A stretch of DNA of 64,000 nt from Dehalococcoidia bacterium. GTDB taxonomy: Bacteria; Chloroflexota; Dehalococcoidia; Lucifugimonadales; UBA3495. The DNA lies in the NCBI GenBank assembly GCA_022827095.1, contig JAJDTP010000005.1, positions 62,001 through 126,000 of the forward strand. The letters run 5' to 3'. Positions 4,373 through 61,169 of the stretch are shown here, in pieces. Numbering within the stretch: the stretch's first letter is position 1; the number at the start of each line of letters is the position of its first letter. Made by a program: the position numbers and the translations under genes. The notes beneath the pieces are model-generated. The model was not told where the DNA came from, did no database searches, and was given only the letters and a program-made list of their open reading frames with translations.

Positions 4373-4660
4373 CTAGTTGTCGGCAGCCACGGCCAGGTCG
4401 GCCTGCGCGATCCTCGCGGAGATGACTTCCTTCATCTTGCGGACGCGGCCCAGCTCGGGGTAGATGTTCCCCTCGGCCTTCTTGTCAAAGATCTTCTCGC
4501 CGTCCACGAACACTTCCATGATGCCTTGGCCGCGCGGGGAGATGGTGATGGCGGCGTCGCCGCCGTAGGCCCGGAAAAACTCGTTCGCCATCCACGTGGC
4601 GGTAGCGTGGTGCTGTCAAGGCACGCAATAGGTAATCTCGATCTGGACTTTGCCTTCCAT
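4373..4660 (-). CDS. SelW/Rdx-family selenoprotein (in-frame UGA, CxxU)
   Basis: A 95-residue thioredoxin-like protein of the SelT/SelW/SelH (Rdx) family. Read from the ATG at 4660 the N-terminus is MEGKVQIEITYC followed by V-P-TGA. The TGA (4618-4616) sits exactly where the family has its second redox residue, giving C12-V-P-U15. The frame then continues through ATWMANEFFRAYGGD, GIMEVFVDGEKIFDKK and EGNIYPELGRVRKMKE, the normal SelW body. A near-perfect ribosome binding site GGAGGAG (4665-4671) lies 4 nt before the ATG at 4660, whereas the internal ATG at 4591 has none. A short ORF called from 4591 would lose the active site. Thiol-based redox function is inferred from the family. Confidence 0.85.
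4589..4612 (-). promoter_or_regulatory. Candidate bacterial SECIS hairpin of the SelW-like gene
   Basis: Starting 4 nt after the UGA, the mRNA can fold CACCACG against CGUGG-A-UG (7 bp with one bulged A) around a 9-nt loop that contains a G 16 nt from the UGA. Position and size fit the loose bacterial SECIS pattern; folding was done by eye. Confidence 0.5.
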
Positions 4661-4778
4661 GTTTCTCCTCCGAATGGAGCGTGTATTTTTTGGCGATTGC
4701 CTTGCGAATTTTATCACAAATGAAAAGACGTTCCAACAACCGCGTTGTCACTCGCGTACTCAGTTTGCGGCGGAGAAA

Positions 4779-4891
4779 CGTCAGAAGCAGGATTCACGGG
4801 ATTTAATGATTTGCAGGATTGGGAGATCCCTATATCACAAAACGGTTCCAATCCTGACAATCCCCAAATCTTGAAAATCCTGCTTCTGACG
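4779..4891. repeat. Long imperfect inverted repeat
   Basis: The 330-bp stretch before cysC holds no gene but carries this palindrome. The outer arms 4779-4794 and 4876-4891 are perfect 16-bp complements (CGTCAGAAGCAGGATT). Inner parts also match: GATTT, GATT and CAGGATTGG recur in both arms, giving arms of about 45 bp around a short centre. It is AT-richer than its surroundings. It resembles palindromic intergenic elements built on the GCAGGATT/AATCCTGC theme. It could form a cruciform or a stable RNA hairpin. Confidence 0.7.
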
Positions 4892-4950
4892 ATTTACGAA
4901 AGCGGATACGCGGCGGCGTACCGGGAGCGTATTTGCCAATCGGGCTGCGA

Positions 4951-4956
4951 TATAAT
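4951..4956 (+). promoter_or_regulatory. -10 box of cysC
   Basis: Perfect TATAAT followed by CGCC, 32 bp before the cysC ATG. The best TTG-like hexamer (TTGCCA at 4933-4938) is only 12 bp away, too close, so the -35 is weak or absent. Confidence 0.6.
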
Positions 4957-4987
4957 CGCCGGCGATAACTGATCCTCGGTGTGCGAT

Positions 4988-5632
4988 ATGGGCAACCAAT
5001 CTGAAGTGTTCTGGCAGGACTACGCCGTATCCCGGCGCGACCGGACCGCGCTGCTCGACCAGGACCCGTTGGTCCTCTGGTTCACTGGCTTGTCCGGCGC
5101 CGGCAAGACGACGCTGGCCAACTGCCTGGCCAAACGCCTGTACGACTGCGGGTACGCGACCTACGTTCTGGACGGGGACAACCTGCGCCACGGCCTCAAC
5201 CGGGACCTGGATTTCAGCGTGGCGGCGCGCCACGAAAACGTGCGGCGTATGGCGGAAGTGGCTGGCCTCATGTACGACGCCGGCCTGATCACCCTGGCGG
5301 CCTGCATCTCCCCGTTCAAGACGGAACGGGACTTCGCCAGGAGTCTGGTGCCGGACGGCAAATTCGTCGAGGTGTTTGTCGATACCCCGCTGTCGCTGTG
5401 TGAGCAAAGGGACAACAAGGGTCTCTACCGCCGGGCCCGGGCCGGGGAAATCGTCAATTTCACCGGTATCGACTCGCCGTTCGAGCGCCCGGAGGACCCG
5501 GAGATCGCCATCAACACCACTGGTCGCTCGCCCGCTGATTGCATCGAGGCCATCATGGACTACCTGTCTGCCCACCGGCTCATTACGGTCGCTGGACAGC
5601 AGCGGCGTAGCGAGAACCGACTTCAGGCATAA
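4988..5632 (+). CDS. cysC: Adenylylsulfate (APS) kinase
   Basis: Phosphorylates adenosine 5'-phosphosulfate to PAPS, the sulfuryl donor. P-loop GLSGAGKTT, then VLDGDNLRHGLNRDL, the APS-binding HENVRRMAEVAGLM, and SPFKTERDFAR all match CysC. The protein is 214 residues, normal for a stand-alone kinase. The start is uncertain: the ATG at 4988 is chosen, a GTG three codons upstream (4979) is possible, and neither has a clear ribosome binding site. The arylsulfotransferase-like gene 3 kb away is another sulfur-group enzyme, but no sulfate adenylyltransferase is nearby. Confidence 0.93.
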   Translation: MGNQSEVFWQDYAVSRRDRTALLDQDPLVLWFTGLSGAGKTTLANCLAKRLYDCGYATYVLDGDNLRHGLNRDLDFSVAARHENVRRMAEVAGLMYDAGLITLAACISPFKTERDFARSLVPDGKFVEVFVDTPLSLCEQRDNKGLYRRARAGEIVNFTGIDSPFERPEDPEIAINTTGRSPADCIEAIMDYLSAHRLITVAGQQRRSENRLQA

Positions 5633-5697
5633 CGGAGACAGCGCCGGATCGAGGTTCGCCGAGGCCGGGTTCTGCGTCTCCACGAACGCTGGGTCGA

Positions 5698-5727
5698 TTG
5701 GCAACACTAGCCGCGCAACGTTATAAT
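5698..5727 (+). promoter_or_regulatory. Promoter of ilvE
   Basis: TTGGCA (5698-5703) and TATAAT (5722-5727) are separated by 18 bp. The ribosome binding site AAAGGGGG lies just before the GTG at 5760. No T-box or leader peptide is seen in the short leader. Confidence 0.75.
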
Positions 5728-5759
5728 GCCTCGAATTCTTTGCTCAAAGGGGGCATTAC

Positions 5760-6722
5760 GTGACTACCAATGGCCAGGCTTCCTTCAATGCCGATGAACT
5801 GCAGGTGTTTTTCCGCGGGCAGTTTGTACCAGCCAGCGAGGCCAGGGTAAGCGTAATGACCCACGCCCTCCACTACGGGACGGGTGTATTCGAGGGTATC
5901 CGCGGCAACTGGAACCAGGAGCAGGGCGCGATCAATATCTTTCGCATGCGGGAGCACTACGAACGGCTGCTGGACGGATGCCGCATTCTCATGCTGGACA
6001 TCCCCTACTCGGCAGACGACCTCTGTGACATCACCGTGCAGCTGGTGGAGCGCAACGGGCACGATACGGACATTTATATCCGCCCGCTGGCGTACAAGAG
6101 CCAGGAACTAGTCGCTAACCTCAAGCTCCAGGAGCTGGAGTCGGACTTCACCCTTATCACGGTGCCGTTCGGCAACTATCTGGGCAGTGATCGGTTGCGT
6201 TGCTGCACTTCGTCCTGGCGTCGCGTTGACGACCCGATGATCCCGGCGCGCATCAAGGCCTGCGGCATCTACATCAACAGCATTCTCGCCAAGACCGAGG
6301 CCACCATCGCGGGTTTCGACGAAGCCATCCTGCTGAACCACGACGGGCACGTGTCGGAGGGGTCCGGCGAGAACATTTTCATGGTCAAGAACGGGGTGAT
6401 CTACACTCCGCCGCTGGAGGACAACGTCCTGGGCGGCATCACCCGCGACACGATCATGCAGTTGGCCGCGGCCGAAATGGGCAAGGAAGTGCAGATGCGC
6501 ACCATCGACCGCAGTGAGTTGTACCTTGCGGACGAGGTGTTCCTCAGCGGCACCGCCGCCCACTTGACTCCGGTGGTTGAGCTGGACTTCCGGCCCATTG
6601 CCGACGGTCAACCCGGACCGATCACGACGCAGTTGCAGCGCATGTACTTCGATATCGTGGTCGGCAACAATCCCAAGTACCGGCACTGGTGCACGCAGGT
6701 AAGGCAGCCCGTAGCGGCTTAG
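5760..6722 (+). CDS. ilvE: Branched-chain amino acid aminotransferase
   Basis: PLP-dependent fold-type IV transaminase for the last step of Val/Leu/Ile synthesis. The 320 residues include HALHYGTGVFEGIRG, the PLP lysine Lys166 in ARIKACGIYINS, EAILLNHDGHVSEGSGENIF and the phosphate-binding GGITRDTIMQLA, then FLSGTAAHLTPV. GTG start at 5760 with AAAGGGGG upstream. It follows cysC by 127 bp with its own promoter, and plsY begins 27 bp downstream. The fold also covers D-amino acid transaminases, but motif spacing and length favour IlvE. Confidence 0.93.
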   Translation: MTTNGQASFNADELQVFFRGQFVPASEARVSVMTHALHYGTGVFEGIRGNWNQEQGAINIFRMREHYERLLDGCRILMLDIPYSADDLCDITVQLVERNGHDTDIYIRPLAYKSQELVANLKLQELESDFTLITVPFGNYLGSDRLRCCTSSWRRVDDPMIPARIKACGIYINSILAKTEATIAGFDEAILLNHDGHVSEGSGENIFMVKNGVIYTPPLEDNVLGGITRDTIMQLAAAEMGKEVQMRTIDRSELYLADEVFLSGTAAHLTPVVELDFRPIADGQPGPITTQLQRMYFDIVVGNNPKYRHWCTQVRQPVAA

Positions 6723-59568: not shown

Positions 59569-60111
59569 CTACCGATCTACCAGGCAGGCAATCACCTGGG
59601 GCGCTGCGGTGGCTGCCCGCTCGGATAGCTCAGCGTCGGTCAACGTGATGATGGGGTGCTCGATGATCGCGAGGCCGTACTCCGGGTCGCCCCGCATGCG
59701 GGACATGGCGCGGGCCTGGCTTACGAAGGGCCGGGTGGTCAGCACGGTGGACGGGATGCCCAGCAGTTCGGTTTCCATTGCGTCGTGCACACTGCACGCG
59801 GTGCAGGACCCTCATTCCGCTGTGGCGTGAATCGCCACATCGATGCTCCTGGCGGTGCGCTGCAGGTCCTCGATGCGGGCCGGCCACTGCCATCCGCCCT
59901 TATTGTGCTCCACGGTGCCGGCGATGTCGTATCGCTCGCCGATGATGGCAGCGATGCGGCGCAGCAGGTTCTCCGAATGGGGTTTGTTGTTGGCGAACAG
60001 CCCGATGACCTTGCCGTCCAGGGTCGCGGGGCGCTGCGCCAACCGCGACGGAGCCGGCGGCGCGTCGTCACGCGGGTCCAGCGTGACGATGGGTGAGCCT
60101 TGTGTAGTCAT
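59569..60111 (-). CDS. UGSC-family selenoprotein (in-frame UGA)
   Basis: A 180-residue protein when the TGA at 59814-59812 is read as selenocysteine. It opens MTTQGSPIVTLDPRDDAPPA, has GKVIGLFANNKPHSENLLRR and IDVAIHATAE up to Glu99, then U100-G-S-C, the motif that names the UGSC (seleno)protein family, then TACSVHDAMETELLGIPSTV and ARAMSRMRGDP. Both halves are in one frame, 321 nt apart in phase. GGAGG lies 7 nt before the ATG at 60111. A standard caller would split it into a 99-residue and a 73-residue gene. Redox or selenium-ligand chemistry is likely; the reaction is unknown. Confidence 0.9.
59792..59806 (-). promoter_or_regulatory. Candidate bacterial SECIS hairpin of UGSC gene
   Basis: Five nt after the UGA the mRNA forms CUGCAC-CGC-GUGCAG, a perfect 6-bp stem with a G in the loop, 13 nt from the UGA. 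Good position for SelB recognition. Confidence 0.6.
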
Positions 60112-60167
60112 GCCATGACCTCCGTATTCGGGACTGGCCCGTGGGATAGCGCGGGATCGCGGCGGCG

Positions 60168-61169
60168 TCAGTCGGGTACCGCCACTTGCCGAATGACCGA
60201 GCGGCTGGAGCCCCAGGTGGCGATGAGGCTAACGAAAGCGCCGGCCATGCCGCCACCGGGCAGCACGGTGATCCGGTCGGCCTCGGGAACCACCGGAACC
60301 AGCCGGTCGTGGTCAAGCTCATGGCCCATCCGCTTCCAGCGCATCCATTCGGACACGGGCAGCCGCGCCTTGTCGTGCAGGAAATCTGCCACTCGCTGCC
60401 GACTCCAGCCGGCGGCGGTCACATATCCCATCGCCTCAGGGCTGATTACGCATATGACTTCCGGCATACCCGGGCCGAAGGCCAACATGGCGTGGGCAAC
60501 GGTGGTCAGGAAATCGGCCGGGTCGCGGTCTCCGTGCAGGGTAACTTGCAGGGGCGCCAGGGTGGCGAAGGCTTGCACGATGGTTGCGTCGTCGCCGTAG
60601 CCCAGTTCGGACGCCAGCGATGGCCAGGGGCTGATGGCCAGGTTCTCGGGGAAGCTGAAGGTGATCTTGCCGGCGTGGCCGAAGGTGCTGTTGTCCATCA
60701 CCACCGGAACCGAGCCGTAGAAGTTGGACTTGAACAGGTTCACCGCCCGCCCGATGGCGGCGTTGGCGCGGCTGCCGTTCCCCATCATCTCAACGCCGGC
60801 GTTCATGCCGATGGTCTCGGCGTAGGGCCCGCTGACCACCGTGAGCACGGTTGCGCCGTTGGTGGACGTGCTACTGGCGTGGAGGTTGAAACTCCGCTCC
60901 GTGATCGCCGACAGCGCCGCCATGACCACCGGGAAATGCTCCGGCAGACAGCCGGCCATCACCGCGTTCACCGCCGCCTTGCCGGCCGTAAACCCCTTCT
61001 GGCGGATGATCTCCGTGCCCAGGTCGTGGTCGGCGCCGACCCCGGCGTAATCCAGCATCGACTGCACCCGGTCCGGGGTGGGCGGCACAATGGGCAGCCC
61101 GTCGGTTAGGCCGTTGGCGAAGTAGTATTCCTGGGCGTCGTTCCAGTCGGCAAAGCTGAGGGTGGTCAT
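60168..61169 (-). CDS. Probable UGSC-partner protein, conserved hypothetical
   Basis: A 333-residue cytoplasmic protein starting MTTLSFADWNDAQEYYFANG, LTDGLPIVPPTPDRVQSMLD. A conserved-looking core AGKAAVNAVMAGCLPEHFPVVMAAL and SGPYAETIGMNAGVEMMGNGSRANAAIGRAVNLF follows, then VLPGGGMAGAFVSLIATWG at the end. No known catalytic motif is visible. It lies 56 bp upstream of the UGSC gene on the same strand, so they form an operon, and I recall similar neighbours of UGSC genes. It may bind the same substrate or form a complex. Confidence 0.65.
   Translation of the reverse strand: MTTLSFADWNDAQEYYFANGLTDGLPIVPPTPDRVQSMLDYAGVGADHDLGTEIIRQKGFTAGKAAVNAVMAGCLPEHFPVVMAALSAITERSFNLHASSTSTNGATVLTVVSGPYAETIGMNAGVEMMGNGSRANAAIGRAVNLFKSNFYGSVPVVMDNSTFGHAGKITFSFPENLAISPWPSLASELGYGDDATIVQAFATLAPLQVTLHGDRDPADFLTTVAHAMLAFGPGMPEVICVISPEAMGYVTAAGWSRQRVADFLHDKARLPVSEWMRWKRMGHELDHDRLVPVVPEADRITVLPGGGMAGAFVSLIATWGSSRSVIRQVAVPD

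Follow-up and report, generated by a model that had tools for sequence, protein, structure and literature searches.

The window analysed, a stretch of 64,000 nucleotides from a Dehalococcoidia bacterium (contig JAJDTP010000005.1, positions 62,001 to 126,000), contains on its minus strand two reading segments that lie in the same frame and are separated by one TGA codon, which is followed directly by Gly-Ser-Cys. The frame starts with ATG at 60111, has its single TGA at 59812-59814 and ends with TAG at 59569. The initial annotation had described this arrangement and proposed that the TGA is read as selenocysteine (Sec) at residue 100 of a UGSC-family protein. The features of the locus are:

59569..60111, minus strand: gene for a selenoprotein of the UGSC family, 180 aa with Sec100, ending in TAG (Pfam PF24696, genus orthologs, purifying selection)
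59812..59814, minus strand: UGA that encodes Sec100 (single in-frame TGA, the same in paralogs and named homologs)
59784..59798, minus strand: apical hairpin of the conserved SECIS, CGUGCA-GUG-UGCACG, at +14 to +28 relative to the UGA (covariation)
59792..59806, minus strand: hairpin of the initial annotation, CUGCAC-CGC-GUGCAG, +6 to +20 after the UGA, perfect in the window sequence, not conserved
60119..60123, minus strand: ribosome binding site GGAGG (sequence; GGAG-type sites also before genus orthologs)
60168..61169, minus strand: partner gene, 333 aa, with an NAVMAGC motif, upstream in the same direction after a gap of 56 nt

Under the standard code the locus yields two open reading frames of 99 and 73 aa. 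When these are joined, the 180-aa protein reads HATAE-U-GSCTACSVHD around Sec100, with the UGSC motif at residues 100-103. Inspection of the window sequence placed GGAGG 8-12 nt 5' of the ATG of the first half and found no ribosome binding site before the second half, in agreement with the initial annotation. The Pfam UGSC profile PF24696 matched residues 11-178 of the joined protein, a span that includes the junction (8e-43, 147 bits, gathering score 25), and the proposed membership was thereby upheld. The score against the NCBIfam equivalog model NF041046 was 109 bits (109.4), below its cut-off of 125 bits. This cut-off is strict, since several other clear UGSC members also score below it. 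With a score under the cut-off, the window gene would probably be left unnamed by NCBI's own model, and standard annotation would probably split or miss such a gene. The gene thus adds one more member to an uncharacterised family that was named in 2008 (Zhang & Gladyshev 2008), with which it shares the profile, motif, length, UGA position and SECIS, and from whose usual members it differs in having Glu instead of Asp before Sec. What is new here is the position of the SECIS, the near-obligate partner, a relationship to GrdB with a predicted fold that is not thioredoxin-like, and the linkage to thioredoxin genes.

The UGA was conserved in the paralogs, the genus orthologs and the named homologs. 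The source genome (G000) holds seven UGSC copies, each with exactly one internal TGA and otherwise uninterrupted, and all 50 genomes of the GTDB family hold 2-13 copies, with one TGA in each copy among those listed. The ortholog of the window gene occurs once per genome in 14/14 genomes of the genus (source included), again with one TGA each, and in 13 of these genomes GGAG-type ribosome sites were found before the first ATG. Codon-position differences in 13 genus genomes (first/second/third position) amounted to 784/314/2695 before the UGA and 497/176/2270 after it; third positions dominate both, and the reading frame and purifying selection are alike on the two sides. Among 80 named homologs from Chloroflexota, Proteobacteria, Actinobacteria and Acidobacteria, collected with a search pattern that fixes amino acids and not codons, all 80 have UGA at the Sec position; the nearest (L105) is 93% identical across the C-terminal half. 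Sec100 and Cys103 are invariant. As the initial annotation had suggested, homologs with another residue at the Sec position could also be found. The matches listed for 400 genomes of the phylum include three full copies without UGA, with Cys (L210), Thr (L211) and Met (L212), respectively, and isolate plasmids of Natrinema, Halalkalicoccus, Arthrobacter, Roseovarius and Variovorax carry TGC or TGT (CGSC). The UGSC genes on plasmids of Paracoccus versutus and Acidovorax sp. T1 retain both UGA and hairpin.

Taken by itself, the pair of open reading frames of 99 and 73 aa would suit a plain stop codon, a sequencing error or the scar of a pseudogene, with the two halves separate or dead. This reading is already contradicted by the recurrence of the same UGA in the genus, the seven paralogs and the 80 named homologs, by the purifying selection that continues after the UGA, by the second half lacking a ribosome site and by the homologs that carry Cys at the UGA position, and we regard its probability as negligible. 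Close homologs all read through the UGA, with neither an end at this stop nor a frameshift. The apparent split gene is one intact gene with an internal UGA read as selenocysteine.

The machinery for this reading is complete in the source genome (3.79 Mb, 97.7% complete), where the four genes that the initial annotation had named were all found: selA (438 bits), selB (355 bits), selC, that is a tRNA-Sec with anticodon UCA, and selD. The active site of selD is itself a UGA: the gene (C20:25694-26614, L021) reads GAGUAAKL with one in-frame UGA and is a selenoprotein gene in its own right. Co-occurrence with SelA is a weak test, as 321 of the 400 phylum genomes pass the selA cut-off anyway. UGSC copies with UGA were also seen in three genomes in which selA was not found or was weakly matched, namely G393 (C35:28845-29375, L089; listed as 98% complete), G266 (L074) and G378 (L072, a copy that also has no hairpin); the reason may lie in missing contigs, contamination or decay.

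Bacterial SECIS elements have a UGA-to-loop distance of 16-37 nt and a G in the first loop positions. Just 3' of its UGA the window gene has a SECIS hairpin with a GU apical loop, at +14 to +28, for which this distance is 20 nt. Across 42 distinct sequences 96.4% of the cells in the stem pair, with 18 two-sided changes, and the covariation was 0.313, against 0.107 ± 0.018 in shuffles (0/500 reached the observed value) and at most 0.086 when the hairpin was slid along the alignment. The loop, GUN, begins with GU in 59 of 61 distinct sequences from paralogs and homologs, and all 80 named loci have TGA, 6/6 pairs and the GU loop at this position. The stem changes together with the encoded amino acids while pairing is kept, as in GTGCA-GTG-TGCAC (CSVHD), GTGGA-GTT-TCCAC (WSFHD), GGCCA-GTG-TGGCC (ASVAD) and GTACA-GTG-TGTAC (YSVYD). 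In six Cys homologs, which served as a negative control, 2-5 pairs are left and none has the GU loop. The folding energy of the single sequence was uninformative (z -0.5), and covariation was needed. The perfect 6-bp hairpin that the initial annotation had placed 5 nt after the TGA (+6 to +20) exists in the window, but it was wrongly taken for the SECIS: the conserved element overlaps it and lies 8 nt further on. In the 42 homologs the +6 to +20 hairpin is paired in 77.4% of cells, compared with 76.3% in shuffles, and its presence in the window is probably coincidental. We consider it almost certain that decoding of the UGA relies on SelB and tRNA-Sec, aided by the hairpin 14-28 nt downstream.

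The gene just upstream belongs to a family that accompanies UGSC nearly everywhere. In 73/80 loci a partner is encoded no more than 3 kb from UGSC, nearly always upstream and on the same strand; in some copies, one of them in the source genome, it is fused behind UGSC. Of the 400 phylum genomes, 42 have the partner and 42 have UGSC, with 41 common to both, where the two are adjacent or fused (hypergeometric p about 1e-53, a value that ignores shared ancestry). Searches of Pfam, NCBIfam and the PDB with the partner, as a single sequence and as a profile, returned nothing convincing. The AlphaFold (AF2) model of a fused UGSC-partner protein reached a pTM of 0.87, consistent with two domains that are fixed relative to each other; in a fold search with this model the UGSC domain filled the matches listed, and the partner fold was not identified among them. 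Very probably, UGSC supplies the small, catalytic subunit of an enzyme made of two components, and the gene immediately upstream encodes the other. The association is only partly new: the 2008 GOS survey reported a 'UGSC/Unknown_1 fusion' (PMC2398784), and the partner may correspond to that 'Unknown_1' domain. In the same survey, UGSC ranked among the selenoprotein families most abundant in ocean metagenomes, with 255 sequences. In two further UGSC paralogs of the source genome the third Cys is replaced by Trp: one at C5:135600-136109, about 10 kb past the end of the window, and one at C15:117114-117644 (L011), which is fused to the partner domain.

The AF2 model of the window protein (pLDDT 93.9, pTM 0.86) has five strands, each followed by a helix, and Sec100 lies between strand 92-98 and helix 101-116. 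Its structural matches were Rossmann, flavodoxin and B12-binding-like folds, with the best Z about 10 and many tied; no GrdB structure was seen among them. The beta-alpha-beta plus beta-beta-alpha topology of the thioredoxin fold, including its hairpin, is absent from the predicted model, which counts against the 'likely Trx-like fold' proposed in 2008. The recurrent remote relatives were instead of the GrdB type. Weak profile matches among 83 UGSC members comprised 47 to TIGR01917 GrdB (best 3.8e-6), 30 to GrdF, 16 to GrdH and 10 to PrdB, and few other families recurred. Comparison of the UGSC and GrdB profiles gave a probability of 94% with Sec aligned on Sec over about 80 residues, against at most 1.2% for reversed and column-shuffled controls. 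The window protein itself gave no match to the GrdB models (PF07355 and TIGR01917), and some of its UGSC relatives matched weakly (16-18 bits among the matches listed, against a cut-off of 602); the sequence comparisons therefore place it outside that family, as a remote relative of the domain that carries Sec in subunit B of glycine/proline reductase.

With GrdB, GrdF and GrdH, the selenoproteins B of glycine, sarcosine and betaine reductase, the UGSC proteins share the Sec motif (UGTC there, UGSC here, with Sec aligned on Sec), the GIP and HP motifs that follow it, a partner subunit and, in some clusters, thioredoxin genes; the grd clusters also carry trxA (PMC10838667). On the other hand, the last domain alone is comparable, and profile comparison found no similarity between the partner and GrdB. 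PrdB of D-proline reductase and the short PrdB-like selenoproteins are likewise small one-domain Sec subunits with UxxC, but with UPxC instead of UGSC and a weaker profile similarity (36% probability). A short PrdB-like gene in the source genome (C35:68451-68861, L193), in which the match is followed by TGA-PLC, is likely a further selenoprotein of the UPxC type.

Thioredoxin genes adjoin some of the UGSC loci. In Arthrobacter the order is trxB-trxA-partner-UGSC, with trxB-trxA directly before the pair, in Roseovarius UGSC and trxB adjoin, and in Variovorax trxB is nearby. Thioredoxin-like genes lie near 10 of the 80 named loci, a minority that also holds for UGSC copies overall; none was seen beside the window pair. 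Other neighbours of UGSC loci encode CoA transferases, amidohydrolases, members of the PEP mutase family, TRAP and tripartite transporters and phosphosulfolactate synthase. These genes suit organic-acid catabolism and name no substrate, and in the wider neighbourhood, with its mixed catabolic genes, no single conserved pathway recurs. Promoter and terminator scans found nothing.

In line with the initial annotation, we found no proposed reaction for UGSC in the literature, nor any work on selenoproteins of SAR202/Chloroflexi; its relatives and the genes around it suggest a GrdB-like reductase supplied by thioredoxin. We lean, with modest confidence, towards the window gene encoding the selenol subunit of a two-gene, thioredoxin-dependent reductase distantly related to glycine reductase. 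Because of the remote homology to GrdB/PrdB, we propose that Sec, positioned where a helix of the Rossmann-like domain begins, would use its selenol to attack a small organic acid, bound jointly with the partner subunit, at a polarised C-N, C-O, C-S or C-halogen bond. Cys103, the cysteine of UxxC, would then resolve the selenenyl intermediate, thioredoxin and thioredoxin reductase would re-reduce the active site, and paralogs within one genome would act on different substrates. A GrdB-like pair has been proposed to cleave C-F in fluoroacetate (PMC10838667).

The UxxC motif would suit the suggestion of the 2008 survey, a general thiol/selenol oxidoreductase (a disulfide reductase or peroxidase with a thioredoxin fold), but the predicted Rossmann/flavodoxin-like fold without the thioredoxin-fold hairpin, the flavodoxin-like and B12-binding-like best structural matches and the GrdB-type sequence relatives speak against it, and the dedicated partner and the paralog expansion suggest substrate-specific enzymes; we judge this quite improbable. 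Slightly less improbable, yet still unlikely, is an enzyme that depends on the selenol without carrying out a net reduction (a racemase, lyase or transferase), in which thioredoxin would merely keep Sec reduced. The Rossmann-like fold and the catabolic neighbours (CoA transferase, amidohydrolase, PEP mutase family, transporters) would be compatible with such an activity, whereas the invariant resolving Cys103 and the dedicated trxB-trxA genes fit turnover by Sec oxidation better. More tentatively, and with slightly more doubt than belief, UGSC and its partner could form a thioredoxin-fed reductase system in its own right, widespread among mostly aerobic microbes and, in the Cys form, halophilic archaea; it would derive from the same Sec domain as the anaerobic glycine and proline reductases and would have multiplied within genomes for different organic-acid substrates. 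The near-obligate partner, the GrdB/PrdB relationship and the linked thioredoxin genes provide a testable mechanism for UGSC, and selenium machinery is not needed to express the Cys versions from cultured halophilic archaea, Arthrobacter and Roseovarius.

Several of the plasmid-borne copies have features of their own. The Cys-type protein of Arthrobacter (L217:6021-6836) is extended at its C-terminus by a further domain, perhaps NifU-like, that contains an AACSDC motif. The conjugative IncP plasmid p2-T1 of Acidovorax sp. T1 (L221) carries a pair of UGA-type UGSC and partner at about 4400-6000, where the incomplete table of PLSDB has no gene. Plasmid pVEu of Vibrio europaeus (L219:4413-6098) encodes a fused UGSC-partner protein in which Met occupies the Sec position and the UGSC motif is missing; its gene adjoins those of an enolase and aconitase X, and this protein probably has a different function.
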